Assembly (NCBI RefSeq): GCF_019890725.1
Contig: NZ_JAINZZ010000032.1
Coordinates: forward strand, 1-64,000
Direction: 5' to 3'
DNA: 64,000 nt
Source of the DNA: Actinacidiphila acidipaludis
Lineage (GTDB): Bacteria > Actinomycetota > Actinomycetes > Streptomycetales > Streptomycetaceae
Shown here: in pieces, positions 7,582 through 55,357 of the stretch
Layout of the letters: each line of letters begins with the position of its first letter
Position numbering within the stretch: the stretch's first letter is position 1
The notes under the pieces: model-generated
Database searches by the model: none
The model's input: only the letters and a program-made list of their open reading frames with translations
Told to the model about the DNA's origin: nothing
Translations under genes and position numbers: made by a program

Positions 7582-8562
7582 TCAGAGGGTGCTCCAGTCG
7601 TGGTCCGGGTAGCGGTGCAGCGGCGCCGAGACGTCGTCGAGCGCCAGATTGATCTCTTCGGGAAGACTAAGGGTCTCCACTGACAGCGCCGCCGTGAGCT
7701 GGGCGGCGTTGCGCGCGCCGAGGATGGGGGCGACGACGCCGGGGCGGTCGCGCACCCACGCGAGGGCGACCTGGAGCGGGGAGACGGCCAGGCCGTCGGC
7801 CGCTATGGCCAGCGCGTCCACGATGAGGCGGGCCGTCTCGTCGAGGTAGGGCGCGACGAACGCGGCCATGTCCTCGGACCCGCCGCGCGAGTCCCCGGGC
7901 GTGGTGTGCCGGTACTTGCCCGTCAGCACGCCGCGGCCCAGCGGGGACGACGGCAGCAGTCCGACGCCGAGGTCGACCGCGGCCGGCAGCACCTCCCGCT
8001 CCACGCCGCGCTGCAGCAGCGAGTACTCCATCTGGGTGCTGGCCAGCGCGGTGCGGCCGGGGGAGGCGAGCTGCCAGGTCGCGGCCTTGGAGAGCTGCCA
8101 GCCGCAGAAGTTGGAGACGCCGACGTAGCGGGCGCGGCCGGAGCTGACCGCGATGTCGAGCGCCTGCAGCGTCTCCTCCAGCGGGGTGCCCGGGTCGAAG
8201 GCGTGCACCTGCCACAGGTCGACGTAGTCGGTGCCCAGCCGCTGCAGCGACGCGTCGAGCGCGGACAGCAGATGCCCGCGCGAGGCGTCGAAGCGCCGGT
8301 CGGGGTCGGGCACGCTGCCCGCCTTGGTGGCGATCACCAGGTCGGAGCGCGGCACCAGGTCCTCCAGGAGCCGCCCGAGCAGGTACTCGGCACCCCCGTC
8401 GGCGTAGACGTCGGCGGTGTCGACCAGCGTGCCGCCCGCGTCCCAGAACGCCTTCAACAGGTCGGCGGCGTCGCGTTCGCCGGTGTTCCGGCCCCAGGTG
8501 AGCGTGCCGAGCCCGAGCCGGGACACGCGCAACCCGGTCCGGCCGAGGTGCCTTTGCTCCAT
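7582..8562 (-). CDS. Aldo/keto reductase
   Basis: 326 residues, a full-length (beta/alpha)8 NADPH-dependent oxidoreductase. The start LGRTGLRVSRLGLGT is typical of the YajO/Tas-like branch. The catalytic tetrad is visible as DTADVY (Asp and Tyr near 49-54), ATKAG (Lys near 81) and VHAFD (His). The cofactor-binding end includes SPLGRGVLTGK and GARNAAQL. The physiological aldehyde or ketone is not evident. It sits 34 nt upstream of the RecD-like gene on the same strand and could be cotranscribed with it. There is no Shine-Dalgarno sequence before the ATG. Confidence 0.88.
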   Translation of the reverse strand: MEQRHLGRTGLRVSRLGLGTLTWGRNTGERDAADLLKAFWDAGGTLVDTADVYADGGAEYLLGRLLEDLVPRSDLVIATKAGSVPDPDRRFDASRGHLLSALDASLQRLGTDYVDLWQVHAFDPGTPLEETLQALDIAVSSGRARYVGVSNFCGWQLSKAATWQLASPGRTALASTQMEYSLLQRGVEREVLPAAVDLGVGLLPSSPLGRGVLTGKYRHTTPGDSRGGSEDMAAFVAPYLDETARLIVDALAIAADGLAVSPLQVALAWVRDRPGVVAPILGARNAAQLTAALSVETLSLPEEINLALDDVSAPLHRYPDHDWSTL

Positions 8563-8570
8563 GACCGCTG

Positions 8571-8576
8571 AGGCTA
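8571..8576 (-). promoter_or_regulatory. -10 box for the aldo/keto reductase, probably leaderless
   Basis: On the minus strand TAGCCT ends 8 nt before the ATG at 8562, and no ribosome-binding sequence lies between. This fits a leaderless or nearly leaderless transcript. Confidence 0.4.
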
Positions 8577-8694
8577 GCGCCCGTACTGGCCGAATGGGCG
8601 GCAGTGACGTACCTGACAGGCGTCGTGATGCCGCGCGGACGCTACAGTCCGGGGGGACAACGACGTTACCGATGAGTACGAAAAGGGGAGCGGC

Positions 8695-9744
8695 ATGCGG
8701 CTCGGGATCAACCTCGGTTACTGGGGTGCCGGGATGGACGCGGACAACCTGGCCGTCGCCCAGGAGGCGGACCGCCTCGGGTACGCGGTCTGCTGGGCCG
8801 CCGAGGCGTACGGCTCCGACGGCCCCACCGTGCTGTCCTGGGTCGCCGCGCAGACCGAGCGGATCGACGTCGGCTCGGCCATCTTCCAGATCCCGGCCCG
8901 CACCCCGGCGATGACCGCGATGACGGCCGCGACCCTCGACTCGCTGTCCGGCGGCCGCTTCCGGCTCGGCCTCGGGGTGTCCGGCCCGCAGGTGTCAGAA
9001 GGCTGGTACGGCGTCAAGTTCGACAAGCCGCTGTCGCGCACCCGCGAGTACGTCGAGATCGTCCGCAAGGCGATGGCCCGCGAGCGGCTGAGCTACGAGG
9101 GCGAGCACTGGACCCTGCCGCTGCCCGGCGGTCCGGGCAAGCCGATCAAGCTGACCGTCCACCCCACCCGCGAGCACATCCCGCTGTACATCGCGGCGAT
9201 CGGCCCCAGGAACCTGGAGCAGACCGGCGAGATCGCCGACGGCGCCCTGCTCATCTTCCCGTCCGCCGCGCACCTCGAGGACACCGCGCTGCGCCACATC
9301 CGGGCCGGTCGCGCGAAGGCCGGACTGACGCTGGACGGCTTCGACGTCAGCCCCACGCTGCCGCTGGCCCTGGGCGAGGACGTCTCCGCGCTCGCCGACG
9401 TCTTCCGCCCGTACACCGCGCTGTACGTGGGCGGTATGGGCAGCCGCAAGCAGAACTTCTACAACCAGCTCGCGCAGCGCATGGGTTACGAGAAGCAGGC
9501 CGCCGAGATCCAGGACAGGTACCTGGCCGGCGACAAGGACGGCGCGGCGGCCGCGGTGCCGCAGGACCTCATCGACTCCACCTGCCTGCTCGGCCCGGTG
9601 CAGCGGATCGCCGACCGTATGCGGGAGTACGCCGAGGCGGGCGTCACCACGCTCAACCTGAGCCCGGCCGGCTTCACGCTCGACGAGCGGATCGCGGGCC
9701 TGCGCGCGGGTGTCGAGGCGCTGGAACTGGCGGGCCTGGCCTGA
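8695..9744 (+). CDS. LLM-class F420-dependent oxidoreductase
   Basis: 349 residues, luciferase-like monooxygenase fold. The start MRLGINLGYWGAGMD, the core LDSLSGGRFRLGLGVSGPQV and the repeated TIM-barrel strands match the F420-dependent branch of the family (often annotated as a Rv-type LLM oxidoreductase). Actinobacterial members reduce or oxidise diverse substrates with coenzyme F420. The substrate here is unknown. The start ATG follows AAGGGGAG with about 5 nt spacing. It stands alone between genes on the other strand. Confidence 0.85.
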   Translation: MRLGINLGYWGAGMDADNLAVAQEADRLGYAVCWAAEAYGSDGPTVLSWVAAQTERIDVGSAIFQIPARTPAMTAMTAATLDSLSGGRFRLGLGVSGPQVSEGWYGVKFDKPLSRTREYVEIVRKAMARERLSYEGEHWTLPLPGGPGKPIKLTVHPTREHIPLYIAAIGPRNLEQTGEIADGALLIFPSAAHLEDTALRHIRAGRAKAGLTLDGFDVSPTLPLALGEDVSALADVFRPYTALYVGGMGSRKQNFYNQLAQRMGYEKQAAEIQDRYLAGDKDGAAAAVPQDLIDSTCLLGPVQRIADRMREYAEAGVTTLNLSPAGFTLDERIAGLRAGVEALELAGLA

Positions 9745-9870: not shown

Positions 9871-10485
9871 TCAGCCCGGGACGAGCCGTCCGAGCAGGCG
9901 GCCGAAGTCGATCAGCCGGGCTATCTGGCCCGGGCCGCCGTCGTCCAGCGACTTGCTGAACCGGAAGGCCTCCGGGCGGAACTTGGCCGACGTCACCGGC
10001 AGCGGCGAGTCCGGGTCGGCCGTGACCGCGCTCAGTTCGTGCGGGGTGGCGGTGGCCAGCACCACGTAGACGCCGCGGTCGATGCGTCCGCCGCGCTCGT
10101 CGCGGCCGACCAGGGTGCGCATGCCCACATGGCCGATGGAGTCCAGCGGCAGCACCTGCACGGAGGAGTCCAGCACGGTGCCGCCCGGCGCCTTGTCGTC
10201 GGCCAGTTCCTCGCTGTGCCACAGGATCAGCCGGCGGCCGTCGCAGACCGCCGCCTCCTGCCACACCGAGGTGCCGGCCTCCGTCAGGTCCACCACGCGC
10301 TCCAGCGTGAAGCCGCGCACCCGGCGGCGGCCCAGCACGCCGGCGATGGCGTCCAGCGCGATGTCGGCGTGCAGGAAGTACACCCGGGCGGCGTCGTCCA
10401 GGCGGTCGTAGGGCGACCAGTCCGCTCCGGCGGCACCCGTCCCGGACGCAGTTCGCGGTCGGCTCCTCGTCGCCTTGCCGAACAT
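9871..10485 (-). CDS. Conserved actinobacterial protein of unknown function
   Basis: 204 residues from the chosen ATG. The recognisable block is ARVYFLHADIALDAIAGVLG, then VVDLTEAGTSVWQEAAVCDGRRLILWHSEELADDKAPGG, VLPLDSIGHVG and a C-terminal helix. No catalytic motif, signal or membrane segment is evident. It appears to be a soluble protein with a beta-rich core. The frame is open to 10587, but MFGK at 10485 is the most likely start. A GTG two codons upstream (10491) is also possible, and neither has a strong ribosome site. It is divergent from the histidine phosphatase gene. About 125 bp downstream contain a run of GGGTGCCGGGTGCC-like repeats and no gene. Confidence 0.65.
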   Translation of the reverse strand: MFGKATRSRPRTASGTGAAGADWSPYDRLDDAARVYFLHADIALDAIAGVLGRRRVRGFTLERVVDLTEAGTSVWQEAAVCDGRRLILWHSEELADDKAPGGTVLDSSVQVLPLDSIGHVGMRTLVGRDERGGRIDRGVYVVLATATPHELSAVTADPDSPLPVTSAKFRPEAFRFSKSLDDGGPGQIARLIDFGRLLGRLVPG

Positions 10486-10683
10486 CTCCACCCGCTTCGC
10501 GATCCCGACTCCCGGGCCCCCTCGGCCCCCCGTCACCTTACCCAGCGGGCGGGACGGCAAGGACCATGCGGGAGTCGCCGGAAGCACCGGGAATCGCGGG
10601 AATTCCGCGGCCGTGGTGGGGGCTCGGGGGTGTCTTCCCCGCCACGGCCGTCACCCAGCACAACGTCCGCGCCCGCAAAGGGT

Positions 10684-10696: not shown

Positions 10697-11398
10697 ATGC
10701 CCACCGTCATCCTCGTCCGGCACGGCCGTTCGACCGCCAACGCCGAAGGAGTCCTGGCCGGCTGGAGCCCCGGTGTCGCCTTGGACGACACCGGCCGGGC
10801 CCAGGCGACCGCGCTCGCCGCCCGCCTCGCCGCCGTACCCCTGGCCGCCGTCGTCTCCAGCCCGCTGCAGCGGTGCCAGGAGACCGTCAAACCCCTGCTG
10901 GACACCCGCCCGGAGCTGACGCCGCACACCGAGGAGCGGATCGGCGAGTGCCACTACGGCGACTGGACCGGCCGCAAGCTCAGCGAGCTGGCCGAGGAGC
11001 CGCTCTGGGCGACCGTGCAGCGCCACCCCTCCGCCGCCGTCTTCCCGGGCGAGGAGGGCGAGTCGCTGCGGGCCATGCAGGCCCGCGCCGTCGACGCGGT
11101 CCGCGACTGGAACCGGCGCATCGAGGACGCGCACGGCCCGGACGCCACCTATCTGATGTGCTCGCACGGCGACATCATCAAGTCCCTCGCCGCGGACGCC
11201 CTCGGGATGCACCTCGACCTCTTCCAGCGGATCAGCACCGACCCGTGCTCGGTGACGGTGATCCGCTACACCCCGCACCGCCCGTTCCTGCTGCGCCTCG
11301 GCGACACCGGGGACCTCAGCACCCTCGCCCCCGCACCGGGACCGGCCCCGGCCGCCGCCGACGACGCGGTGGTCGGGGGCTCCACCGGCACCCGTTGA
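10697..11398 (+). CDS. Histidine phosphatase (MSMEG_4193-like phosphomutase family)
   Basis: 233 residues, a phosphoglycerate-mutase-like acid phosphatase fold. The catalytic motif LVRHGRSTAN is at residues 6-15 (H9 is the phosphoacceptor). The acid/base GECHYGDWTG lies near residue 82 and the second histidine is in CSHGDIIKS near residue 156. The last 40 residues are an Ala/Pro-rich tail. In actinobacteria this subfamily travels with the DUF3090 and SCO1664-type proteins that follow here. The substrate is not known. The three genes are close together (66-nt gap, then an overlap) and run in the same direction as mshC. Confidence 0.85.
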   Translation: MPTVILVRHGRSTANAEGVLAGWSPGVALDDTGRAQATALAARLAAVPLAAVVSSPLQRCQETVKPLLDTRPELTPHTEERIGECHYGDWTGRKLSELAEEPLWATVQRHPSAAVFPGEEGESLRAMQARAVDAVRDWNRRIEDAHGPDATYLMCSHGDIIKSLAADALGMHLDLFQRISTDPCSVTVIRYTPHRPFLLRLGDTGDLSTLAPAPGPAPAAADDAVVGGSTGTR

Positions 11399-11464
11399 TC
11401 AGCTTCCGCAGTAGGGTGGGTGACCGGTACAGCAGCCCGATCGGACAAGCAAACGGAGCAAGAA

Positions 11465-12055
11465 GTGCCCCGTCAGGTCTTCTTCTACGAACATCCCGAC
11501 CGTTTCGTGGCCGGGACCGTCGGCCAACCCGGCCAGCGGACGTTCTACCTGCAGGCCACCGCGTCCGGGCGGACCACCAGCGTCGCCCTGGAGAAGACCC
11601 AGGTGGCCGCGCTGGCGGAGCGTGTCGACGAGCTGCTGGACGAGGTGGTGCGGCGCAGCGGCGGGAGCGCGGCGGTGCCCGCCGTGGCCCCGAGCGAACT
11701 CTCCGACACCGCACCGCTGGACGTGCCGGTGGAGGAGGAGTTCCGGGTCGGCACCATGGCCCTGGCCTGGGACGGCGCCCACGAGCGGATGGTCATCGAG
11801 GCGCAGGCCCTGGTCGAACTCGTCGGTGACGACGAGGAGGACCTGGAGGCGGCCGAGGAGGAGATGCTCCAGGACGACGAGAACGGCCCGCCGCTGCTGC
11901 GCGTGCTGCTCACCGGCGCCCAGGCCCGCTCCTTCGCCAAGCGCGCCCTCGACGTGGTCTCCGCGGGCCGCCCGCCGTGCCCGCTGTGCAGCCTGCCCCT
12001 GGACCCGGAAGGACACGTATGCCCGCGTCAGAACGGGTACCGGAGGTCGGCCTGA
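11465..12055 (+). CDS. DUF3090-family protein
   Basis: 196 residues. The start PRQVFFYEHPDRFVAGTVGQPGQRTFYLQA is the family signature. The middle has a helix with LEKTQVAALAERVDELL and an acidic stretch (DDEEDLEAAEEEMLQDDE). The C-terminus has a zinc-ribbon-like cluster CPLC plus a later Cys (CPLCSLPLDPEGHVC). The function is undetermined. The GTG at 11465 is preceded by GGAG with about 6 nt spacing. The coding end overlaps the next gene by 37 nt, which strongly suggests translational coupling with the kinase-like protein. Confidence 0.88.
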   Translation: MPRQVFFYEHPDRFVAGTVGQPGQRTFYLQATASGRTTSVALEKTQVAALAERVDELLDEVVRRSGGSAAVPAVAPSELSDTAPLDVPVEEEFRVGTMALAWDGAHERMVIEAQALVELVGDDEEDLEAAEEEMLQDDENGPPLLRVLLTGAQARSFAKRALDVVSAGRPPCPLCSLPLDPEGHVCPRQNGYRRSA

Positions 12056-13074
12056 TCCCGGCCGCGCCCGGGACCACGGAGGCCGCGGCCCACGCGTCCG
12101 GGCGGTCCGGGGCGAGGGGCGCAGGCCCGTCGGCGCCCGACGGCACCCATGTCCTGCTGCACGGTGAGCTGACCGTGCGCGGGCAGGTCCGCGAGGCGTC
12201 CAACGCCGTGCTGTACTGCGAGGCGGTCCTCGACGGCCGCTCGGTGACGTGTGTGTACAAGCCGGTCGCCGGAGAGCGCCCGCTGTGGGACTTCCCCGAC
12301 GGCACCCTGGCCCAGCGCGAGGTCGCGGCCTATCTGATCTCCGAGGCCACCGGCTGGGGGCTGATCCCGCCCACCGTGCTGCGCGACGGCCCCTACGGCG
12401 AGGGCATGGTCCAGCTCTGGATCGACGTCGCGGGCGACGGGGAGATCCTCGCCGGGCCTGACGACGCCGACGGCACAGACGACGGAGACACCGACGACGC
12501 CGACGGCACAGACGACGGAGACACCGACGACGCCGACGGCAGGGACGGCCACGACGATGACGGGGACGGTGTGTCCCCCGAGGGGCAGGCCGGGCCCGGG
12601 CCGCTGCTCGCGCTCTCCGAGGAGCTGGAGCCGGCCCCGGGCTGGAAGGCGGTCGTCGAGGCCGAGACCGGCGACGGCCGCACGGTCCTGCTCGTGCACG
12701 CCGACGACATACGCCTGCGCCGCCTCGCCGTCCTCGACGCCGTGATCAACAACGCGGACCGCAAGGGCGGCCATCTGCTGCCCGCGCCCGACGGCCGCCT
12801 CTACGGCATCGACCACGGCGTGACGTTCCACACCGAGGACAAGCTCCGCACCCTGCTGTGGGGCTGGGCCGGCGAACCGCTGCCCGCCGAGGCCGTGCCG
12901 GTGCTGGAACGCCTCGCGGCGGCGCTGGACGGCGCCCTGGGGGAGCGGCTGGCGGAACTGCTGACGGCCGCCGAGACCGACGCCCTGCGCCAACGGGTCC
13001 GCCGCCTGCGGGAGACCGGCGTGCACCCCGCCCCGGGCGGCCAGTGGCCCTCCATCCCGTGGCCACCGGTCTGA
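12019..13074 (+). CDS. SCO1664-family kinase-like protein
   Basis: 351 residues. Conserved segments are VCVYKP-type (TCVYKPVAGERPLWDFP, about residues 77-93), LAQREVAAYLISEATGWGLIPPTVLRDGP, then VLDAVINNADRKGGHLL and GIDHGVTFH in the C-terminal half. The last two resemble the catalytic-loop (xxNxxR) and DxG metal motifs of PI3/4-kinase-like and HipA-like folds, so a phosphotransferase is plausible but not shown. An acidic insert of 11-residue repeats (about 148-174) lies between lobes and is encoded by a 33-bp tandem repeat. The ATG at 12019 follows GGAAGGA and overlaps the DUF3090 gene. Confidence 0.8.
   Translation: MPASERVPEVGLIPAAPGTTEAAAHASGRSGARGAGPSAPDGTHVLLHGELTVRGQVREASNAVLYCEAVLDGRSVTCVYKPVAGERPLWDFPDGTLAQREVAAYLISEATGWGLIPPTVLRDGPYGEGMVQLWIDVAGDGEILAGPDDADGTDDGDTDDADGTDDGDTDDADGRDGHDDDGDGVSPEGQAGPGPLLALSEELEPAPGWKAVVEAETGDGRTVLLVHADDIRLRRLAVLDAVINNADRKGGHLLPAPDGRLYGIDHGVTFHTEDKLRTLLWGWAGEPLPAEAVPVLERLAAALDGALGERLAELLTAAETDALRQRVRRLRETGVHPAPGGQWPSIPWPPV
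12460..12540 (+). repeat. 33-bp coding tandem repeat (about 2.5 copies)
   Basis: Two identical 33-bp units (12460-12492 and 12493-12525) plus 15 bp of a third (12526-12540). Each encodes DDADGTDDGDT. The unit length is a multiple of 3, so copy-number change would keep the reading frame and only alter the length of an acidic linker. Confidence 0.9.
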
Positions 13075-14455: not shown

Positions 14456-15457
14456 CTACTCGTCCGGGTCGCTGTCCGAGCCGTCGTTCGAGTCGCCGTC
14501 CGGGTCGCCGTCCGCGGGCGGCGCGTCCGGGCCGTCCTCCTCGTCGCGCGGCGGGCGGAAGCGGGGGACGCCGTCCTCGCCCTCGCTGGCGTAGCCCCCC
14601 GCGGACCCGCCCGCCTGCGGGTCCCGCCGCCGCAGGTACCGCTCGAACTCCTTGGCGATGGCCTCGCCCGAGGCCTCCGGCAGCTCCGCGGTGTCCCGCG
14701 CCTCCTCCAGCGTCTGGACGTACTCCGCGACCTCGCTGTCCTCGGCGGCGAGCTGGTCCACGCCGACCTGCCAGGCCCGGGCGTCCTCCGGCAGCTCGCC
14801 CTGCGGGATCCGCAGGTCCAGCAGGTCCTCCAGCCGGTTGAGCAGCGCCAGCGTGGCCTTCGGGTTCGGCGGCTGGGAGACGTAGTGCGGCACCGCGGCC
14901 CACAGGCTCACCGCCGGGATCCCGGCATGGGTGCACGCCTCCTGCAGGATGCCGACGATGCCGGTCGGCCCCTCGTACCGCGACTCCTCCAGGTTGAGGG
15001 CGGTGGCCAGGTCCGCGTCGGAGGTGACCCCGGTGACGGGGACCGGCCGGGTGTGCGGGGTGTCGCCGAGCAGCGCCCCGAGCACGACCACCATCTCGAC
15101 GCCCAGTTCGTGCGCGAAGCCCAGGATCTCGTTGCAGAACGAGCGCCACCGCATGCTCGGTTCGATGCCGCGCACCAGCACCAGGTCGCGCGGCTTGGGC
15201 GTCTGGATCCGCGCCACGGACAACCGGGTCGTCGGCCAGGTGATGCGGCGGGTGCCGCCGTCCATCCACACCGTGGGCCGGTTGACCTGGAAGTCGTAGT
15301 AGTCCTCAGCGTCGAGCGCGGCGAAGACCTCGCCCTTGAACTCCCGGTCCAGATGGCCGACCGCCGTGGATGCTGCGTCCCCGGCGTCGTTCCAGCCCTC
15401 GAACGCGGCCACCATGACCGGGTCGATCAGCTCGGGAACGCCCTCGAGCTCGATCAC
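14456..15457 (-). CDS. PAC2-family (proteasome assembly chaperone 2-like) protein
   Basis: 333 residues. Residues 1 to about 285 show the PAC2 pattern: MVAAFEGWNDAGDAAS near the start, a strand DYYDFQVNRPTV, LVLVRGIEPSMRWR, MVVVLGALLGDTPHTRPVPV, and SLWAAVPHYVSQPPNPKAT. The tail is highly acidic (DGDPDGDSNDGSDSDPDE). Despite the name, actinobacterial PAC2 proteins are not established as proteasome chaperones, though the same window carries the PrcBA proteasome. The start is GTG at 15457 with AGGAGG about 6 nt upstream. It is convergent with mshC. Confidence 0.88.
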   Translation of the reverse strand: MIELEGVPELIDPVMVAAFEGWNDAGDAASTAVGHLDREFKGEVFAALDAEDYYDFQVNRPTVWMDGGTRRITWPTTRLSVARIQTPKPRDLVLVRGIEPSMRWRSFCNEILGFAHELGVEMVVVLGALLGDTPHTRPVPVTGVTSDADLATALNLEESRYEGPTGIVGILQEACTHAGIPAVSLWAAVPHYVSQPPNPKATLALLNRLEDLLDLRIPQGELPEDARAWQVGVDQLAAEDSEVAEYVQTLEEARDTAELPEASGEAIAKEFERYLRRRDPQAGGSAGGYASEGEDGVPRFRPPRDEEDGPDAPPADGDPDGDSNDGSDSDPDE

Positions 15458-45719: not shown

Positions 45720-45757
45720 CTGGGAACGTCCAGCTCCCCTTGGAGGAGGTGAGGACC

Positions 45758-47524
45758 GTGGCGGCCCACGACGACGACATCAACCGTGGCGGCCGACCCG
45801 CCCGTGGATCGGAAGATCCCATGGGCCAGGTCGCCTTTCTTGAGCAGGAGATCGCCGTCCTGCGACGCAAGCTCGCCGACTCTCCGCGGCACACGAGGAT
45901 TCTCGAGGAGCGGATCGTCGAGCTGCAGACCAATCTGGCGGGCGTCTCCGCGCAGAACGAACGGCTGGCGAACACCCTCCGCGAGGCCCGCGACCAGATC
46001 GTGGCCCTCAAGGAAGAGGTCGACCGGCTCGCGCAGCCGCCCGCCGGCTTCGGCGTGTTCCTGCAGGGCAACGACGACGGGACGGCGGACATCTTCACCG
46101 GCGGGCGCAAGCTCCGGGTGAACGTCAGCCCGTCCGTCGAGCTCGACGAGCTGCGGCGCGGCCAGGAGCTGATGCTCAACGAAGCGCTCAACGTGGTCGA
46201 GGCCATGGAGTTCGAGAGCATCGGCGACATCGTCACCCTCAAGGAGATCCTGGAGGACGGCGAGCGCGCCCTGGTCATCGGGCACACCGACGAGGAGCGC
46301 GTGGTCCGGCTCGCCGAGCCGCTGCGCCAGATCCCGCTGCGCGCCGGTGACGCACTGCTGCTCGAACCCCGCTCGGGATACGTGTACGAGCGCGTGCCCA
46401 AGAGCGAGGTCGAGGAACTCGTCCTGGAAGAGGTGCCGGACATCGACTACCGGCAGATCGGCGGCCTGGGCAACCAGATCGAACAGATCCGGGACGCGGT
46501 CGAACTCCCGTACCTGCACGCCGAACTGTTCCGCGAGTACGAACTGCGGCCGCCCAAGGGTGTGCTGCTGTACGGCCCGCCCGGATGCGGCAAGACGCTG
46601 ATCGCCAAGGCGGTGGCCAACTCCCTGGCCAAGAAGGTCGCCGAGGTGACCGGGCAGCCGCAGGGCAAGAGCTACTTCCTCAACATCAAGGGCCCGGAGC
46701 TGCTCAACAAGTACGTCGGCGAGACCGAGCGGCAGATCCGCCTGGTCTTCCAGCGGGCCCGGGAGAAGGCCAGCGAGGGCACCCCGGTCATCGTCTTCTT
46801 CGACGAGATGGAGTCGCTGTTCCGCACCCGCGGCAGCGGCGTCAGCTCGGACGTGGAGAACACCATCGTTCCGCAGCTGCTCGCCGAGATCGACGGCGTC
46901 GAGGGCCTGGAGAACGTCATCGTCATCGGCGCCTCCAACCGCGAGGACATGATCGACCCGGCGATCCTGCGGCCCGGCCGGCTCGACGTGAAGATCAAGA
47001 TCGAGCGTCCGGACGCCGAGGCGGCCAAGGACATCTTCTCCAAGTACCTGCTCGACACGCTCCCGCTGCACAGCGAGGACCTCGCCGAGCACGGCGGGTC
47101 CACGGCGGCCACGGTGGACGCCATGATCCAGTCCGTGGTGGAGCGGATGTACTCCGAGACCGAGGAGAACCGGTTCCTGGAGGTCACCTACGCCAACGGT
47201 GACAAGGAGGTCCTGTACTTCAAGGACTTCAACTCCGGAGCCATGATCCAGAACATCGTGGACCGGGCCAAGAAGATGGCGATCAAGGACTTCCTGGACC
47301 ACAGCCAGCGCGGCATGCGCGTCTCCCACCTGCTCGCGGCCTGCGTCGACGAGTTCAAGGAGAACGAGGACCTGCCGAACACCACCAATCCCGACGACTG
47401 GGCGAGGATCTCCGGTAAGAAGGGCGAACGGATCGTGTTCATCCGCACCCTGGTCACCGGAAAGCAGGGAGCCGACACGGGGCGCTCCATCGACACCGTG
47501 GCGAACACCGGACAGTATCTGTAA
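45758..47524 (+). CDS. arc: Proteasome-associated AAA+ ATPase (ARC/Mpa)
   Basis: 588 residues. The hexameric unfoldase recognises Pup-tagged proteins through its N-terminal coiled coil (about 20-95; [14 protein letters not shown] and following) and threads them into the 20S core. Two OB domains (about 97-240) precede the AAA domain. Walker A is GPPGCGKT (G273-T280), Walker B FFDEMES (D349, E350), and the sensor/Arg-finger region is [19 protein letters not shown]. The C-terminus QYL is the docking motif for the alpha-ring pockets, as in Mpa. GTG start at 45758; the upstream in-frame TTG (45740) and GTG (45749) are less likely. It heads the Pup-proteasome cluster, followed by a terminator and dop. 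Confidence 0.96.
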
Positions 47525-47534
47525 GCACTACCCT

Positions 47535-47580
47535 CCGGCTGCGGGGCCCCACAGACGGGTGCCCGCAGCCGGTGTGTTTT
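47535..47580 (+). terminator. Terminator after arc
   Basis: CCGGCTGCGGG (47535-47545) pairs perfectly with CCCGCAGCCGG (47562-47572), and TGTGTTTT follows. An intrinsic terminator 10 nt after the stop, so arc and dop can be separate transcripts. Confidence 0.75.
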
Positions 47581-47618
47581 CCGGCCCGGAGGGGCCGGAG
47601 CCGGGCAAGGAGGGCCGC

Positions 47619-49130
47619 ATGACCGTACGGCGAGTAATGGGCATCGAGACGGAGTACGGGATCTCCGTCCCCGGCCACCCCAACGCCAATGCCATGCTCA
47701 CCTCGTCCCAGATCGTCAACGCGTACGCGGCGGCGATGCACCGGGCCCGCCGGGCCCGCTGGGACTTCGAGGAGGAGAACCCGCTGCGGGACGCCCGCGG
47801 CTTCGATCTCGCCCGGGAGGCGGCGGACTCCACCCAGCTCACCGACGAGGACATCGGCCTGGCCAACGTCATCCTCACCAACGGTGCCCGGCTCTACGTC
47901 GACCACGCGCACCCCGAGTACTCCTCGCCGGAGATCACCAACCCGCGGGACGCGGTGCTGTGGGACAAGGCGGGGGAGCGGATCATGGCCGAGGCGGCGC
48001 TGCGGGCGTCCCAGCTGCCCGGCGCCCAGCCGATCCACCTGTACAAGAACAACACCGACAACAAGGGCGCGTCCTACGGCACGCACGAGAACTACCTGAT
48101 GAAGCGGGAGACCCCCTTCTCGGACATCGTGCGGCACCTGACGCCGTTCTTCGTCTCCCGGCAGGTGGTGACCGGCGCCGGCCGCGTCGGCATCGGCCAG
48201 GACGGCCACGAGGACGGGTTCCAGATCAGCCAGCGGGCGGACTACTTCGAGGTCGAGGTCGGCCTGGAGACCACCCTCAAGCGGCCCATCATCAACACCC
48301 GCGACGAACCCCACTCCGACGCCGAGAAGTACCGGCGCCTGCACGTGATCATCGGGGACGCCAACCTCTCCGAGATCTCGACCTACCTCAAGCTCGGCAC
48401 CACCGCGCTGGTGCTGTCCATGATCGAGGACGGCTTCATCAAGGTCGACCTGGCCGTGGACCAGCCGGTGCGGACCCTGCACGAGGTCTCCCACGACCCG
48501 ACCCTGCACCAGCTCATCACGCTGCGTAACGGCCGCACCCTCACCGCGGTACAACTCCAGATGGAGTACTTCGAGCTCGCCCGCAAGTACACCGAGGAGC
48601 GGTACGGCGCGGACGCGGACGCGCAGACCAGGGACGTCCTCACCCGCTGGGAGGACGTGCTGAACCGCCTGGAGAACGACCCGATGAGCCTGGCCGGCGA
48701 GCTGGACTGGATCGCCAAGCGGGAGGTGCTGGAGGGCTACCGGCGCCGGGACGGCCTGGGCTGGGACGCCGCGCGGCTGCACCTGGTGGACCTGCAGTAC
48801 GCCGACGTGCGGCCCGACAAGGGCCTGTACAACCGCCTGGTGGCCCGCGGCCGCATCCGGCGGCTGCTGGACGAGCCGGAGGTCCTGCGGGCCGTCCAGG
48901 AGCCTCCGGAGGACACCAGGGCGTACTTCCGCGGCCGCTGCCTCGAGCAGTACGCGGACGACGTCGCGGCGGCCTCCTGGGACTCGGTCATCTTCGACCT
49001 GCCCGGCCGTGACTCGCTGCAGCGCGTGCCCACGCTGGAGCCGCTGCGGGGCACCCGCAACCACGTCAAGGAGCTGCTCGACCGCTGCCGCACCGCCGAG
49101 GAGCTGGTCCGGATCCTGTCCGGGGGCTGA
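47619..49130 (+). CDS. dop: Pup deamidase/depupylase
   Basis: 503 residues, carboxylate-amine ligase (glutamine-synthetase-like) fold. ATP/Mg residues are in GIETEYG (E10, E12), the catalytic Asp is D95 in [11 protein letters not shown], and other conserved blocks are [15 protein letters not shown] and [11 protein letters not shown]. The stretch at about 40-80 ([20 protein letters not shown]) is the Dop-loop that distinguishes it from PafA. Dop cleaves Pup from substrates and, in species with Pup-Gln, deamidates it. Here pup encodes a terminal Glu, so only depupylation should be needed. AAGGAGGG precedes the ATG. Confidence 0.95.
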
Positions 49131-49297
49131 CCCGCGGCTGAAACGGCCCGGAATCGGGAAACAACCCAGTGGCAGTCGTACGTTGAGGTAATCGAGCGCC
49201 GATGTCGGACCGTGCTTGTAGGGTCTGATCTTGTACCGGGAGCACGGACTCATGTACGGCAGGTAACCGAGCGCACGAAACGAGCGGGGTGAGGGAC

Positions 49298-49516
49298 ATG
49301 GCTACGAAGGACACCGACGGCGGACAGCAGAAGGCGACGCGTTCCACCGAAGAGGTCGAGGAGGTCCAGCAGGACGACCAGGCGGCCGCCGACCTCAAGG
49401 AACGCCACGAGAAGCTCTCGGACGACGTGGACTCCGTCCTGGACGAGATCGACGACGTCCTCGAGGAGAACGCGGAGGACTTCGTCCGCTCGTTCGTCCA
49501 GAAGGGCGGCGAGTAG
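49298..49516 (+). CDS. pup: Prokaryotic ubiquitin-like protein Pup
   Basis: 72 residues, intrinsically disordered and acidic, with the helix-forming C-terminal half that binds Arc (ADLKERHEKLSDDVDSVLDE). The C-terminus reads VQKGGE: the ligating residue is already Glu, so it can be attached by PafA without prior deamidation. The ATG at 49298 was chosen over the in-frame GTG at 49289 because GAGG precedes it closely and homologues start MATKD. The 167-nt gap after dop includes TAGGGT (49219-49224), a possible own promoter. It lies directly before prcB. Confidence 0.96.
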   Translation: MATKDTDGGQQKATRSTEEVEEVQQDDQAAADLKERHEKLSDDVDSVLDEIDDVLEENAEDFVRSFVQKGGE

Positions 49517-49532
49517 CCGCTCACCCCTCCAG

Positions 49533-49563
49533 CCGCCCCGCAGCCCCACGGACCGCGGGGCGG
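49533..49563 (+). terminator. Hairpin between pup and prcB
   Basis: CCGCCCCGC (49533-49541) pairs perfectly with GCGGGGCGG (49555-49563) across 13 nt. It starts 17 nt after the pup stop and may lower read-through into prcBA, leaving Pup in excess. Confidence 0.5.
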
Positions 49564-49583
49564 ATGGATTTCCGGGCGGCGGG

Positions 49584-49589
49584 TAGGGT
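49584..49589 (+). promoter_or_regulatory. -10 box before prcB
   Basis: TAGGGT is placed 36 nt before the GTG start at 49626, leaving room for the AAGGA ribosome site. No convincing -35 was found. Confidence 0.4.
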
Positions 49590-49625
49590 CCGTACCGACT
49601 CCCATGATCGTGTGGAAGGAATCGC

Positions 49626-50474
49626 GTGGAAGCCAACACTCGCAGCACCACCGGGCGTCTGCCGGCCGCCTTCCTGACGCCCGGCTCGTCCTCGTTCCTC
49701 GACTTCCTGGGCGACCACTCGCCCGAGCTGCTGCCGGGGAACCGCACGCTGCCGCCCGTGAAGGGCGCGGTCGAACTCCCGCACGGCACGACCATCGTGG
49801 CCGCCACGTTCGCCGGGGGCGTGGTGCTCGCGGGTGACCGCCGCGCCACGATGGGCAACGTCATCGCCCAGCGCGACATCGAGAAGGTCTTCCCGGCCGA
49901 CGAGTACTCCGCGGTGGGCATCGCCGGCACCGCGGGCCTCGCGGTGGAGATGGTCAAGCTGTTCCAGCTCGAGCTGGAGCACTACGAGAAGATCGAGGGC
50001 GCCACGCTCTCCCTGGAGGGCAAGGCCAACCGGCTGTCCACCATGATCCGCGGCAACCTCGGCATGGCCCTGCAGGGCCTGGCCGTGGTGCCGATGTTCG
50101 CCGGCTACGACACCGATCGCGAGAAGGGCCGGATCTTCTCCTACGACGTGACCGGCGGCCGCAGCGAGGAGCTGGGCTTCGCGGCCACCGGCTCCGGCTC
50201 GGTCTACGCCCGCGGTTCCCTGAAGAAGCTCTACCGGCACGACCTCACCGAGCGTCAGATGGTGACCGCCGTGGTCCAGGCCCTCTACGACGCGGCGGAC
50301 GACGACGCGGCCACCGGCGGCCCCGACCTGACCCGCAAGATCTTCCCGATCGTCTCGGTGATCACCGAGGACGGCTTCCGCAGGCTCAGTGAGGCCGAGG
50401 TCTCCGAGATCGCCCACTCGGTGCTGGACGGGCGCCTGGAACGGCCGGACGGACCGCAGGCGCAGGTGCTGTGA
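49626..50474 (+). CDS. prcB: 20S proteasome beta subunit
   Basis: 282 residues. The propeptide of about 54 residues ends in PHG, and self-cleavage would expose T55 ([11 protein letters not shown]), the N-terminal nucleophile of the protease. Supporting residues are GDRRATMGN (Asp and Lys/Arg neighbours) and the family's C-terminal half with GSGSVYARG. The subunit forms the two inner seven-member rings of the core. GTG start with AAGGA about 6 nt upstream. It is 77 nt ahead of prcA. Confidence 0.96.
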
Positions 50475-50551
50475 CGGCCCGCCACGTGACAGGCGGTCAC
50501 GCACCGCATCTCCCGTCTCCCTCAGCGCCAGCAGAAAGGCACGGTTAGCCG

Positions 50552-51331
50552 GTGTCCACGCCCTTTTACGTCTCGCCGCAGCAGGCCATGGCGGACCGCG
50601 CCGAGTACGCCCGCAAGGGCATCGCCCGCGGCCGCAGCGTCGTCGTGCTGCAGTACGCGGACGGCATCGTGTTCGTCGCGGAGAACCCCTCCCGGGCGCT
50701 GCACAAGGTCAGCGAGATCTACGACCGGATCGCGTTCGCCGCGGTCGGCAAGTACAACGAGTTCGAGAACCTGCGGATCGGCGGCGTGCGCTACGCCGAC
50801 CTGCGCGGTTTCACCTACGACCGCGAGGACGTCACGGCCCGCGGCCTGGCCAACGTATACGCCCAGACGCTGGGCACCATCTTCTCCAGCGTCGGCGAGA
50901 AACCGTACGAGGTGGAGCTGATCGTCGCCGAGGTGGGGGCCGCCCCCGAGGACGACCAGATCTACCGCCTGCCGCACGACGGCTCCATCGTGGACGAGCA
51001 CGGCGCGGTCGCGGTCGGCGGCAACTCCGACCAGATCGGCAGCTACCTGGACCAGCGGCACCGCGACGGCATGACGCTGGCCGAGGCGCTGGCGCTGGCC
51101 GTGGAGTCGCTGAGCCGCGACAACAACGGCAGCGACCGGCAGCTGACCGCCGAGCAGCTCGAGGTCGCGGTGCTCGACCGCACCCGGCCGCAGCAGCGCA
51201 AGTTCAAGCGGGTCCTGGGCCGCCAGCTCTCGCGTCTGCTGGAGACGGACTCCGCCGGCGGGACCGGCGCGGCCACCGCCCCCACCGACGACACGCCGCC
51301 CGCGGACGACGCGGCGGACGACGAGGAGTAG
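50552..51331 (+). CDS. prcA: 20S proteasome alpha subunit
   Basis: 259 residues. Family features are the start [26 protein letters not shown] (gate-forming N-terminus), [22 protein letters not shown] and [13 protein letters not shown]-type [13 protein letters not shown]. The last 25 residues are acidic and low-complexity. The alpha rings gate the core and bind the C-terminus of Arc. The GTG at 50552 matches family starts, but the ribosome site is weak (AAAGG 12 nt before). It ends at a strong terminator shared with the LacI gene. Confidence 0.96.
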
Positions 51332-51376
51332 GCCGCAGCACCGGCCGGCTCCGGCTGCCGACCGGGCCTGACACCA

Positions 51377-51429
51377 CCCGCGCCCCTGACGGTGCCGCTC
51401 CGCCGAGCGGCTCCCGTCAGGGGCGCGGG
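51377..51429. terminator. Bidirectional terminator between prcA and the LacI gene
   Basis: CCCGCGCCCCTGACGG (51377-51392) pairs perfectly with CCGTCAGGGGCGCGGG (51414-51429), and inside it GCCGCT (51394-51399) pairs with AGCGGC (51406-51411). The hairpin overlaps the last codons of the convergent LacI-family gene (stop at 51417). Confidence 0.75.
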
Positions 51430-52448
51430 TGCGCCGGGGGAGCGGTGCTGCCCCGGACCACGAGTTCGACGGGCAGCTCGGCCGGGCGGGGCGAGCCGCC
51501 GTCCAGCAGCTCCAGCAGCGCCCGCATGCCGGCCGCACCGACCTCTTCCGCGGGCAGCCGGACCGAGGTGAGTTCCGGGTCCAGCGCGGCGGCCAGCGCC
51601 AGGTCGTCGAAGCCCGACACCGACAGGTCGGCCGGGACGCGCAGCCCCAGGCCCCGGGCGGCCTTGCAGGCACCCGCGGCGAGCATGTCGCCGTCGCACA
51701 GCAGCGCGGTGGGCCGCGGGCCCGGCGCCGTCAGCGCCCGCATGCCGGCCGCCCGCGCCGCGGCGATGTCCAGCGCGCACCGCTCCGTCGCCAGGACGGC
51801 TCCCGGCACGCCGGCCAGCTCGGCGGCCACCGCCTCCGCCCGGGCGCGGAACGTCCAGGTGCCGACGTCGGCCGCGAGATGCGTGATCCGCCGGTGCCCG
51901 AGCGCCAGGAGATGGCGGGTCATCTGCCGGATGCCGTCGCCGACCGCCAGATTCACGGTGGGCGGACCGCCTGCCGGCGCGGGATCGCTGTCCAGCATCA
52001 CCAGCGGCAGCCCGCCGGCCCGGCCGCCGTCGCCGATGCCGGCCAGCGCGTCGGCGGCCATCGAGGAGGCGATCACGCCGTCGATGGCGGCCCGGGCCGA
52101 GCCGAACGGGTCGCGGGCCGGCCCGATGCCCTCCGGCGAGGGGTAGAGCACCACGCCGAAGCCGTGCTCGGCGGCCACGCCCGCCACGCCCGCGTAGATC
52201 CGGGCGAAGTACTCGTTGGTCAGCGCCGGGACCACCAGCAGGGCGGTCCTGGTGCGGCCCAGCCGCAGGCTGCGCGCCGCCAGGTTGGGCCGGTAGCCGA
52301 GCTCGTCGGCGGTGGCCCGCACGGCGAGCGCGGTGCGTTCGGAGACGCGCCCGCGCCACTTGCCGCCCAGCACCAGGGACACCGTCGCCTGCGACACCCC
52401 GGCGGCACGCGCCACGTCGCGCGAGGTGGGCCGCGCCGCACCGGTCAC
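51417..52448 (-). CDS. LacI-family transcription regulator
   Basis: 343 residues. The HTH and hinge helix (about 5-60) are TSRDVARAAGVSQATVSLVLGG and NLAARSLRLGRT, followed by the periplasmic-binding-like effector domain (VVPALTNEYFARIYAGV, DGVIASS, HRRITHLAAD, CDGDMLAAG, SVSGFDDLALAAAL). The GTG at 52448 places the HTH at the N-terminus as in the family; the ORF is open upstream. It is divergent from an MFS transporter gene and probably controls it through the inverted repeat at 52688-52719. The ligand is unknown. Confidence 0.88.
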   Translation of the reverse strand: MTGAARPTSRDVARAAGVSQATVSLVLGGKWRGRVSERTALAVRATADELGYRPNLAARSLRLGRTRTALLVVPALTNEYFARIYAGVAGVAAEHGFGVVLYPSPEGIGPARDPFGSARAAIDGVIASSMAADALAGIGDGGRAGGLPLVMLDSDPAPAGGPPTVNLAVGDGIRQMTRHLLALGHRRITHLAADVGTWTFRARAEAVAAELAGVPGAVLATERCALDIAAARAAGMRALTAPGPRPTALLCDGDMLAAGACKAARGLGLRVPADLSVSGFDDLALAAALDPELTSVRLPAEEVGAAGMRALLELLDGGSPRPAELPVELVVRGSTAPPAHPRP

Positions 52449-52687
52449 GCCGCAACCACCGCAACCGTCACCGACGTCCTCCGCCTCTGCCGTGCCTCTG
52501 CCGCACCTCTGCCACATCACTGCCGCACCACCGCCGGATCCTGATGCCCCGGCTTCCGCCGCCCCAGTCTGACGCCCCGGCCCCGGCCACCGCCCACCGC
52601 CCACCCGTGCCGTGCCGGCGCCCGGCCGGACCGCGGTGTCTCCCGCTCCGCCGCGGTCCCGCGGGTGGACCCGTGAGCTGCGGCCAT

Positions 52688-52719
52688 GGTACGTATGACC
52701 CACTCACGTTATACGTAAC
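52688..52719. promoter_or_regulatory. Candidate LacI-type operator before the MFS gene
   Basis: GGTACGTATGA (52688-52698) and TTATACGTAAC (52709-52719) are inverted copies with 9 of 11 matches and 10 nt between. They lie in the 290-bp divergent gap, just before the MFS start at 52739. The rest of that gap (52449-52687) shows no gene. Confidence 0.5.
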
Positions 52720-52738
52720 ACTGACCGGCGGAGGGGCC

Positions 52739-53986
52739 ATGGCGAGCGGATACGGGGACATGCTGCGCACGCCGTACGCCGCGCGGCTGCTCGGCGGCAC
52801 CCTGCTGGGCCGGCTGCCCAACGCCATGGCCGCCCTGGCCATCGTGCTGTTCCTGCGCTCCCAGGGCGCCGGGTACGGCCTGGCCGGCACCCTGTCGGCC
52901 CTGTACGGGCTCGCCGTCGCCGTCGGGCAGCCGCTGCTCGGCCGGGCGGTCGACAAGCGCGGGCAGCCCCGGGTGATGACCGCCGCCGCCCTGCTGTCGG
53001 CCGCCGGATTCACCCTGCTGGCCGCCGCCGGCCCCTCCCCGCTGCCGGTGGCGGTCCTGGCCGTCCTGCTGGCCGGGACGGCCACACCGCCCCTGGAGGG
53101 CGGTCTTCGGGCGCTGTGGCCCGACGTGCTGGGCGACGGCGAACGGGTGCAGAAGGCGTACGCCCTGGACGCCGCCGCCCAGGAGGTGATGTTCGCGGTC
53201 GGGCCGCTGCTGGTGACCGCCGCCGCGGCCGCCGCCTCCCACGCGGCCGCCGTCGTCCTCACCGGCCTGCTCGGCGTGGCAGGCACGCTGGTGGTGGTCA
53301 CCGCGCGGCCGTCCCGGGCCTGGCGGGCCGAGCCGCGGGAACCGCACTGGCTCGGCGCGCTGCGCTCCCGCGGGCTGGCGGTGCTGCTGGGCGCCTGCCT
53401 CTTCGTCGGCATCGCGCTGGGCGCCGTCTCGCTGGCCGCGGTCGCCTACGGCGACGCGCACGGCGGCGGCCCGGTCGCCGCGTACGTGCTGGCCGCCAAC
53501 GGCGCCGGCGCGCTGACCGGCGGCCTCTGCTACGGCGCCCGGGTGTGGACCGGAGTACCCGAACGGCGGCTTCGGGTGCTGTCCGTCGGTCTGGCCCTCT
53601 GCTACCCGCCGCTGGTCCTGGTGCCCGGCCCGGCCCTGATGCTGCCGCTGGCCGCGCTCTCCGGGCTGTTCCTGGCCCCCGCGCTCGCCTGCGCCTTCCT
53701 GGTGGTCGACCGGCACGCCCCGGCCGGCACCGTGACGGAGGCGTTCTCCTGGGTGGTGACCGCGGTCGGGGTCGGCGCGGCGCTGGGCACCGCCGTGGCG
53801 GGCGTCGCGGCCCAGCACGCGGGCCCCGCGGCGGCCTTCGCCACGGCCGCGGGCGGTGGCGCGGCGGCCCTGCTGGTACTGCTGTGCACCAGCCGAATCC
53901 TGACGGTTCCAAACCTCACGGCAGGCTCGGAAAAAGATCGAATCCGTACGGTCGAACCCCGTTTCAGTACCACGCATCAGGCGTAA
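52739..53986 (+). CDS. MFS transporter
   Basis: 415 residues with about 12 hydrophobic helices. The TM2-3 loop reads GRAVDKRGQPR, the usual MFS motif A position. It resembles drug or sugar exporters and uptake carriers without a substrate-specific motif that I can identify. The cytoplasmic tail after residue 385 is polar. The 3' end lies 9 nt before pafA. GAGGGG precedes the ATG. With the LacI gene it forms a two-gene insert in the Pup cluster. Confidence 0.88.
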   Translation: MASGYGDMLRTPYAARLLGGTLLGRLPNAMAALAIVLFLRSQGAGYGLAGTLSALYGLAVAVGQPLLGRAVDKRGQPRVMTAAALLSAAGFTLLAAAGPSPLPVAVLAVLLAGTATPPLEGGLRALWPDVLGDGERVQKAYALDAAAQEVMFAVGPLLVTAAAAAASHAAAVVLTGLLGVAGTLVVVTARPSRAWRAEPREPHWLGALRSRGLAVLLGACLFVGIALGAVSLAAVAYGDAHGGGPVAAYVLAANGAGALTGGLCYGARVWTGVPERRLRVLSVGLALCYPPLVLVPGPALMLPLAALSGLFLAPALACAFLVVDRHAPAGTVTEAFSWVVTAVGVGAALGTAVAGVAAQHAGPAAAFATAAGGGAAALLVLLCTSRILTVPNLTAGSEKDRIRTVEPRFSTTHQA

Positions 53987-53989
53987 TGT
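53984..53989 (+). promoter_or_regulatory. -10 box, leaderless pafA
   Basis: TAATGT ends 6 nt before the ATG at 53996 and overlaps the MFS stop codon. The -35-like TTTCAG (53962-53967) gives a 16-nt spacer. pafA would be transcribed independently of the MFS gene. Confidence 0.5.
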
Positions 53990-53995
53990 TCAGAC

Positions 53996-55357
53996 ATGGA
54001 CCGCCGCATTTTCGGGCTGGAGAACGAGTACGGCGTCACATGCACGTTCAGGGGACAGCGGCGTCTGTCCCCTGACGAGGTGGCGCGGTACCTCTTCCGC
54101 CGTGTCGTGTCATGGGGCCGCAGCAGCAACGTCTTCCTGCGCAATGGGGCCCGCCTCTACCTCGACGTGGGCTCGCACCCGGAGTACGCCACTCCCGAGT
54201 GCGACAACGTCACCGAACTCGTCACGCACGACAAGGCCGGGGAACGCATCCTCGAAGGCCTTCTGGTGGACGCCGAACGGCGGCTCCACGAAGAAGGCAT
54301 CGCCGGCGACGTCTACCTGTTCAAGAACAACACCGACTCCGCGGGCAACTCGTACGGATGCCACGAGAATTACCTCGTGGCCCGGCACGGTGAATTCTCC
54401 CGGCTGGCCGACATCCTCATTCCGTTCCTCGTCACCCGGCAACTGCTGTGCGGCGCGGGCAAGGTCCTGCAGACCCCCCGCGGCGCCGTCTACTGCGTGA
54501 GCCAGCGCGCCGAGCACATCTGGGAGGGCGTCAGCTCCGCCACCACCCGGTCCAGGCCGATCATCAACACCCGCGACGAGCCGCACGCCGACGCCGAGCG
54601 CTACCGCCGGCTGCACGTGATCGTCGGCGACTCCAACATGTCCGAGACCACCATGCTGCTCAAGGTCGGCGCGACCGACCTGGTGCTGCGGATGATCGAG
54701 GCCGGCACCGTCATGCGCGACCTCACGCTGGAGAACCCGATCCGGGCCATCCGCGAGGTCAGCCACGACATCACCGGCCGCCGCAAGGTCCGGCTGGCCT
54801 CGGGCCGTGAGGCCTCCGCCCTGGAGATCCAGGAGGAGTACTACACCAAGGCGGTGGAGTTCTGTGAGCGCCGCGGCATCCGCAGCGGCGTCATCGACCA
54901 GGTGCTGGAGCTGTGGGGCCGCAGCCTCGAGGCCATCGGCAGCGGCGACCTGGACAAGATCGGCACCGAGATCGACTGGGTGATGAAGTACCAGCTCATC
55001 GAGCGCTACCGCAACCGGGACAACATCACCATGTCCCACCCGCGGGTCGCCCAGATCGACCTCGCCTACCACGACATCCACCGCCGCCGCGGGCTGTACT
55101 ACCTGCTGGAGCGCAAGGGCCAGGCCAAGCGGATCTGCAGCGACCTGAAGATCTTCGAGGCCAAGTCCGTGCCGCCGCAGACCACCAGGGCGCGGCTGCG
55201 CGGGGACTTCATCCGGCGGGCCCAGGAGCAGCGGCGTGACTTCACCGTCGACTGGGTGCACCTCAAGCTCAACGACCAGGCACAGCGCACCGTTCTGTGC
55301 AAGGACCCGTTCCGCTCGGTGGACGACCGCGTGGAGAAGCTGATCGCCGGGATGTGA
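53996..55357 (+). CDS. pafA: Pup ligase
   Basis: 453 residues. It links the C-terminal Glu of Pup to substrate lysines, using ATP. Paralogue of Dop: GLENEYG (E9, E11), catalytic D57 in [36 protein letters not shown] and the C-terminal domain [22 protein letters not shown]. It lacks the Dop-loop, which marks it as the ligase. No Shine-Dalgarno sequence; probably leaderless. It is separated from prcA by the LacI and MFS genes. Confidence 0.96.

Follow-up and report, generated by a model that had tools for sequence, protein, structure and literature searches.

A conserved gene trio of Actinacidiphila acidipaludis encoding a histidine phosphatase, a DUF3090 protein and a predicted kinase: a candidate reversible phosphorylation module

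Why should a histidine phosphatase, a protein of the DUF3090 family and a kinase-like protein of the SCO1664 family be encoded side by side? The question is raised by three co-directed genes in a 64,000 nucleotide (nt) stretch of DNA from Actinacidiphila acidipaludis (contig NZ_JAINZZ010000032.1, positions 1 to 64,000; hereafter the window), whose source assembly comprises 8.48 Mb in 170 contigs. The trio consists of a branch 1 histidine phosphatase gene of the MSMEG_4193 family TIGR03848 (10697..11398, +), a DUF3090/TIGR03847 gene with a GTG start and a C-terminal C-x2-C...H-x-C zinc-knuckle-like motif (11465..12055, +), and a gene of the SCO1664 family TIGR03843 (12019..13074, +), whose product is a predicted kinase of the fold shared by type II phosphatidylinositol 4-kinases (PI4KII), FAM20 and HipA. 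The three-gene set is ancient, and we tentatively read it as one operon encoding a reversible phosphorylation module made up of an ATP-dependent kinase, a phosphatase and a DUF3090 adaptor, a reading that we rate a little below an even balance.

An earlier note on this DNA had described three co-directed genes of these families followed by mshC, and each of the products scored over its curated family cut-off (323.9 bits against 203.85 for the phosphatase, 251.1 against 117.25 for the DUF3090 protein and 360.6 against 172.4 for the predicted kinase; mshC is treated below). The DUF3090 protein also scored 228.2 against 27 for PF11290. The NNADRKGG and GIDHG motifs are both present in the translated SCO1664-family protein, and the DUF3090 and kinase genes overlap by 37 nt (12019-12055), as that note had read from the sequence. 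The ATG at 12019 is preceded at a distance of 5 nt by AGGA, which lies inside the final DUF3090 codons. The DUF3090 start was set at the GTG at 11465, and an in-frame GTG at 11420 is a possible alternative.

To determine how the families are distributed, one set of 246 genomes of the phylum was searched with each of them. The SCO1664 family was found in 99 genomes at an expectation value (E) of 1e-3 (96 over the cut-off), DUF3090 in 99 (82 over the cut-off) and TIGR03848 in 116 at E 1e-35 (72 over the cut-off). SCO1664 and DUF3090 occur together in 98 genomes, each occurs singly in one, and 146 genomes have neither, a co-occurrence far above chance. All three families are present in 97 of the 246 genomes, confirming the note's statement that they are found together across actinobacteria and showing that their distributions are not independent. 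In two further genomes, G163 (kinase missing) and G150 (phosphatase missing), the absent member falls at a contig end, and counting them among the trio genomes brings the total to 99; G165 was dropped as spurious, its kinase match being only at E 9e-4. Nineteen genomes match TIGR03848 at E 1e-35 but have no kinase match; one of them is G163, and the other 18, which have no trio, score 127 to 157 bits, a range that takes in the 142 and 143 bits of the lowest-scoring trio phosphatases. The trio is spread over 26 sampled actinobacterial families.

Gene order was examined in 61 loci (60 fetched loci and the window) and is phosphatase, DUF3090, kinase-like gene throughout, the exceptions being a second copy in genome G008, the only one from which DUF3090 is absent, and two loci at contig ends that lack the kinase. 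A second set held the best 80 loci from a scan of a species-level genome collection with two peptide patterns, one containing NN[AT]DRK and the other YKP. It comprised 59 trios, 10 loci with phosphatase and kinase, 7 with DUF3090 and kinase, and 4 with the kinase alone, some of the latter at contig ends. Taxon labels of metagenome bins are those deposited, and the labels Bifidobacterium breve, Acidobacteria and Rokubacteria look doubtful. When both sets were pooled, 117 loci had all three genes, which were co-directed in every one. The distance from the phosphatase stop to the DUF3090 domain has a median of 15 nt and is at most 100 nt in 112 of these loci, and, relative to the DUF3090 stop, the kinase core match starts at a median of 33 nt upstream and, in 113 loci, no more than 150 nt downstream. 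In one locus, L080, about 940 nt (943 nt, in the region 7860-8800) separate DUF3090 from the kinase core, and the second largest gap among the 117 is 190 nt. The presence, order, linkage and co-distribution of the trio are established, as are the conservation of its catalytic residues and the predicted kinase fold, which follow.

The earlier note had likened the SCO1664-family protein to PI3/4-kinase-like folds, and structure prediction does return a kinase fold. The model, built from 56 sequences, has a mean predicted local distance difference test score (pLDDT) of 79.5 and is low at the N-terminus and in part of an acidic insert (<50). Comparison by VIA with the PDB gave a type II phosphatidylinositol 4-kinase as the best match (Z 16.8, root mean square deviation (rmsd) 4.2, 230 aligned), followed by FAM20 (Z 13.7), CtkA (Z 12.4) and HipA (Z 10.4). 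Foldseek matched the model to PI4KII at E 2.9e-5, and the sequence profile matched PI4KII at E 2e-5 and FAM20A at E 0.005. Of the 56 members, 54 matched the PI3/PI4 kinase family PF00454 at E up to 1, the strongest at 1.1e-13, and the window protein scored 19.7 bits, below the gathering threshold of 27.1. On this modelling the protein is a predicted kinase of the PI4KII/FAM20/HipA fold class.

Residues expected at a nucleotide site are invariant. In 138 homologues (one truncated kinase of 139, L060, was omitted) K81, D91, R100, E101, D240, D247, R248, K249, H252 and D265 do not vary, nor do R277, T278, W281, E319, R326, P347 and P349. In the 80-locus set the invariance of K81, D247, R248 and K249 is partly due to selection by the search patterns, outside which H252 and D265 lie; all six residues are kept in 59 of 59 loci found by the family search alone. 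Of the two outcomes that the earlier note had named as refuting its hypothesis, independent distribution of the families and a model with no kinase-like nucleotide pocket, neither was obtained. The position five after the catalytic Asp is Asn in PI4KII, according to the profile alignment, and His (H252) in 138 of the 138 homologues. Because of this invariant His at the metal site, we do not class the protein among the type II phosphatidylinositol 4-kinases despite the resemblance. In the phosphatase, the catalytic Arg, His, Arg, Glu and His are kept in 59 to 61 of the 61 loci. The DUF3090 model (mean pLDDT 90.8) consists of two sheet-plus-helix units followed by the C-terminal zinc-knuckle motif. 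Its best VIA match is PUR-alpha (Z 9.3, rmsd 3.3, 112 aligned), and two uncharacterised cyanobacterial proteins (Z about 6.5) and Whirly and MRP1/2 (Z about 5) come next; a family missing from the VIA list is not thereby excluded.

In the mechanism that we propose, the SCO1664-family protein would act as an ATP-dependent phosphotransferase of the PI4KII/FAM20/HipA fold. K81 would bind ATP, D247 would be the catalytic-loop aspartate and D265 the metal-binding aspartate of the DHG motif, with H252 replacing the usual metal-binding asparagine. The histidine phosphatase would take the phosphate off again, and DUF3090 would serve as a zinc-binding, non-catalytic adaptor bringing the pair to its target. 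We infer that the genes share a transcript, that the two enzymes are active and have a substrate in common, and that DUF3090 acts as an adaptor. As the target, a protein or something associated with nucleic acid is slightly more likely than an inositol lipid.

Further support for a kinase and phosphatase pair comes from genomes in which the kinase and phosphatase genes stand together with no adjacent DUF3090. Such pairs occur in Arthrobacter, Kocuria, Citricoccus, Propioniciclava and G008, mainly Micrococcaceae, at 11 loci (L037, L115, L118, L128, L133, L144, L147, L148, L154, L166 and L167). The 11 phosphatases form a single clade with support of 100/94 and the 11 kinases a single clade with support of 98. 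Both clades fall within larger groups that include Acidimicrobiia (support 88/92 for the phosphatases and 94 for the kinases) and are separate from the trio genes of the window's class in both trees. The kinase tree was built by a quick method and the phosphatase tree by a careful one that covered 128 of 130 rows, short rows being omitted; both are midpoint-rooted, and the rows of the underlying alignment (A1) were trimmed at chosen in-frame points, their starts being unproven. Since the genes group jointly in both trees, kinase and phosphatase have one history in common, distinct from that of DUF3090, and this is consistent with a working pair. The pair was apparently acquired from an Acidimicrobiia-like source, a direction of transfer that we infer from these groupings. 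G008 carries a full trio in addition to its DUF3090-less pair, and Arthrobacter Leaf69 has the pair and a second phosphatase adjoining a DUF3090 gene. This transfer-like pattern lends further support to the note's hypothesis that the two enzymes may be phosphate-adding and phosphate-removing partners acting on one substrate.

Several observations weigh against the phosphorylation module. The kinase activity is itself a prediction from a model, the TM-score of that model to PI4KII in Foldseek is low (0.36 by query length), and the metal-site Asn is replaced by His throughout. The fold match of DUF3090 to PUR-alpha (Z 9.3; Foldseek E 0.15) is weak and has no profile support, and therefore the PUR/Whirly likeness is a lead only. 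Sequence searches with DUF3090 gave no PDB match at E <0.6, a Pfam search gave, beyond DUF3090 itself, only weak matches, mostly to zinc ribbons, and a comparison of its two halves for homology gave only 26 aligned columns with a probability of 47. No DUF3090 match was obtained in Kocuria, Citricoccus or Propioniciclava (0 of 3), from which it follows that an adaptor is dispensable, and one trio row, L141, sits within the pair clade of the kinase tree. In Chloroflexota, 4 of 11 genomes have only weak TIGR03848 matches (81 to 106 bits) and one has none at E 1e-20. Of the experimental data on a mycobacterial phosphatase, given next, the phosphatase activity without mutase activity speaks for the module, and the Km values and the three substrates not hydrolysed speak against it.

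The TIGR03848 homologue of Mycobacterium tuberculosis is, judging by name and position, taken here to be Rv2135c, which has RHA instead of RHG, and the mycobacterial DUF3090 gene is presumably MSMEG_4192 / Rv2134c. Rv2135c is reported to be an acid phosphatase without phosphoglycerate mutase activity; with the four small substrates that it accepts its Km ranges from 7.75 to 14 mM, which names no substrate, and it is inactive on ADP, 3-phosphoglycerate and glucose-6-phosphate (PMC3866925). MSMEG_4192 appears as a table row in a ClpC1 interactome (PMC10433963) and as overrepresented following dibucaine (PMC10127668), and Rv2134c is listed among mutants with altered rifampicin sensitivity (PMC11329110). 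The portions of the literature searched gave no function for the kinase-like protein or DUF3090 and no link between the trio and pupylation. The earlier claim of an undescribed system holds only in part, as the families are named, the linkage of SCO1664 to mshC is in print (PMC4255298) and the mycobacterial phosphatase has been assayed.

Chloroflexota, assigned by record title or lineage, contribute 11 of the best 80 loci. All 11 genomes have a DUF3090 match, which lies outside the fetched kinase locus in two and 5.6 kb away in a third. A TIGR03848 protein of at least 178 bits is present in six, inside the trio in three (202.8 to 260 bits) and elsewhere in the genome in the other three (214, 187 and 179 bits). 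These scattered positions imply that linkage has been lost while the co-occurrence of DUF3090 and kinase persists.

Might the three proteins be co-transcribed and co-inherited but act on different substrates, as parts of a housekeeping operon with no writer and eraser pair? We consider this unlikely, though it keeps an appreciable share of the probability. Neighbouring genes vary by lineage: no family other than the trio and its antisense shadow frames recurs in more than 13 of the 61 loci, and the ten representatives of shared neighbour families that were annotated comprise UppP (BacA) and ordinary genes of metabolism or transport. A weak or absent phosphatase in 5 of the 11 Chloroflexota genomes and the absence of DUF3090 from 3 of 4 Micrococcaceae/Propionibacteriaceae genomes show that the parts can be lost singly. 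Set against this, the three genes co-occur in a tight arrangement, and in the pair that lacks DUF3090 the kinase and phosphatase group jointly.

An inositol-lipid cycle is less probable still. In such a cycle the kinase would phosphorylate phosphatidylinositol, or another 1-substituted myo-inositol, and the phosphatase would reverse this or act on phosphatidylinositol phosphate. Type II phosphatidylinositol 4-kinase is the closest solved fold, and nearly all trio genomes have Ino1 (E 1e-10; 95 of 99, against 74 of 147 others) and PIP synthase-like genes (E 1e-25; 97 of 99, against 70 of 147 others). A PIP synthase-like match was also obtained in 8 of the 11 Chloroflexota genomes, none over the cut-off. 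However, only 23 of the 167 genomes with a PIP synthase-like gene are over the curated cut-off, and genomes with MshC fall equally well within those with PIP synthase (57 of 59), which makes such nesting weak, non-discriminating evidence. Three Chloroflexota genomes have no PIP synthase match at E 1e-8, and a membrane anchor was not seen in an inspection made by eye only. Loci around PIP synthase in 20 genomes gave no match to trio proteins, and a shared PimA-like glycosyltransferase, identified by eye, is present in 19 of 21 of these loci; the other shared genes, which are unannotated, may include another phosphatase. In four genomes of other classes (L191, L192, L193 and L198) PIP synthase has an MshC-like gene at a distance of a few kb, joining mycothiol-like and inositol-lipid genes.

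The most interesting lead, and the least secure, is a link to the Pup-proteasome system. A complete set lies at 45740-55357 of the window, starting 33 kb downstream of the trio, with all genes on the + strand: the proteasome ATPase Mpa/ARC (TIGR03689, 45740..47524), Dop (TIGR03688, 47559..49130), Pup (TIGR03687, 49289..49516), the 20S proteasome subunits beta, PrcB (TIGR03690, 49626..50474) and alpha, PrcA (TIGR03691, 50552..51331), and the Pup ligase PafA (TIGR03686, 53996..55357). Pup ligase/Dop (PF03136, E 1e-30) was matched in every one of the 99 trio genomes and in 7 of the other 147, an association that nearly matches the trio's internal tightness. Among the matches listed, the kinase and Pup ligase/Dop genes are 18-36 kb apart in 15 of 22 genomes of the window's class, the window included; of the other genomes of the class, three have them 163-771 kb apart and four on different contigs.

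That the trio works for the Pup-proteasome system by modifying a component or a client of it is nevertheless improbable in our estimation. Shared ancestry alone could explain the co-distribution, both systems perhaps having been inherited in the same clades, as the 26 trio families are nested in 30 Pup-ligase families out of 62 family labels. In 7 of 7 genomes checked from other classes the distance between kinase and Pup ligase/Dop is 0.65-1.46 Mb. None of the six Pup-proteasome proteins was found in the 11 Chloroflexota kinase loci, and none in about 1.17 of the 3.7 Mb of a Bellilinea genome that carries trio genes, two thirds of that genome being outside the search; as a positive control, the same search recovered all six proteins in the window. 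A more specific form, in which the trio would be a dedicated reversible-phosphorylation switch of the Pup-proteasome, its PI4KII-fold kinase with the His metal site modifying a part or client and the phosphatase reversing this, is slightly more improbable again. In plants, type II PI4K-gamma enzymes act as protein kinases on RPN10, a proteasome receptor, and on UFD1, and if such a switch existed this activity would be a striking parallel. The co-distribution with pupylation offers a concrete first place to look for a target.

Corynebacterium glutamicum, used as a control genome, has matches to the Pup ligase, the kinase, the phosphatase and MshC, yet no DUF3090 match. To our knowledge this species has no 20S proteasome, and the loss of DUF3090 may therefore track the loss of the proteasome.

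An accessory role in mycothiol synthesis, in which the phosphatase would be MshA2 and its neighbours would tune the pathway, is very improbable: mshC (TIGR03447; 13147..14376, +; 653.2 bits against 485.1) follows the trio in the window, a FEMS review calls SCO1664 an actinobacterial signature protein 'invariably closely linked' to mshC (PMC4255298) and no locus tag accompanies the name MshA2 in the literature searched, but mshC adjoins the trio in only 10 of the 61 loci, in no fetched locus outside the window's class, and the trio is also present in Chloroflexota. MshC was found at E 1e-100 in 59 of the 246 genomes (22 over the cut-off), among them 56 of the 99 trio genomes, leaving 43 with no match. 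A mycothiol-specific role was rejected on this distribution, and the data argue against what the neighbouring gene suggests.

Beyond mshC the window carries a PAC2-family gene (14456..15457, -), and PAC2 adjoins the trio in 9 of the 61 loci. In S. coelicolor ParJ (SCO1662) adjoins mshC (SCO1663), and the PAC2 protein is, from its position adjoining mshC, probably the ParJ counterpart. On the other side, an open frame adjoining the phosphatase (9871-10587, -) has no Pfam or NCBIfam match and may be a real gene or due to chance. A promoter and terminator scan found none. Within the kinase gene, an extra acidic stretch at about residues 147-192 holds a 33-nt tandem repeat (12460..12541, +; 2.5 copies, 100% match); the repeat encodes an Asp-rich insert, and no Asp-rich repeat is present in 19 compared relatives. 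The trio was also considered as a defence system, for which PADLOC gave no match, and as a mobile element, for which the kinase gave hits in 2 of 72,556 plasmid records and 1 of 50,697 phage records; both were rejected. One of the plasmid records is 11.85 Mb long and therefore chromosome-sized, and the phage record is unannotated.

Compared with known systems, the window proteins are members of TIGR03843, TIGR03847 and TIGR03848 over curated cut-offs, and the family records consulted give no cellular role; curators have reportedly noted the trio. The nucleic-acid-binding folds of PUR-alpha, Whirly and MRP, to which the DUF3090 model aligns best, if weakly, differ from it in that DUF3090 has an extra zinc knuckle. 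The bacterial kinases HipA and CtkA share the fold class of the SCO1664-family protein, whose partners are instead a phosphatase and DUF3090; no HipB-like partner was found among the ten annotated shared neighbour families or the scanned window genes beside the trio, single neighbours of other loci being unannotated. The FAM20 secretory kinases, the second fold group, are secreted eukaryotic enzymes, unlike the SCO1664 family, and have Glu rather than His at the metal position. Type II phosphatidylinositol 4-kinases carry a cysteine-rich palmitoylation motif, and none was seen in the translation of the window kinase, which has two single cysteines and no cluster. The likeness to PI4KII alpha and beta lies in the NADR and DHG motifs, which are NTDR and DNG in PI4KII; VYKP resembles the VFKP of PI4KII only in a non-significant segment of the alignment. 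The SCO1664 family differs in having His for Asn and in sharing an operon with a phosphatase. The predicted kinase resembles enzymes better known in animals and plants and, if active, would add to the PI4KII/FAM20/HipA fold a bacterial lineage whose metal site is altered and which comes with its own eraser.

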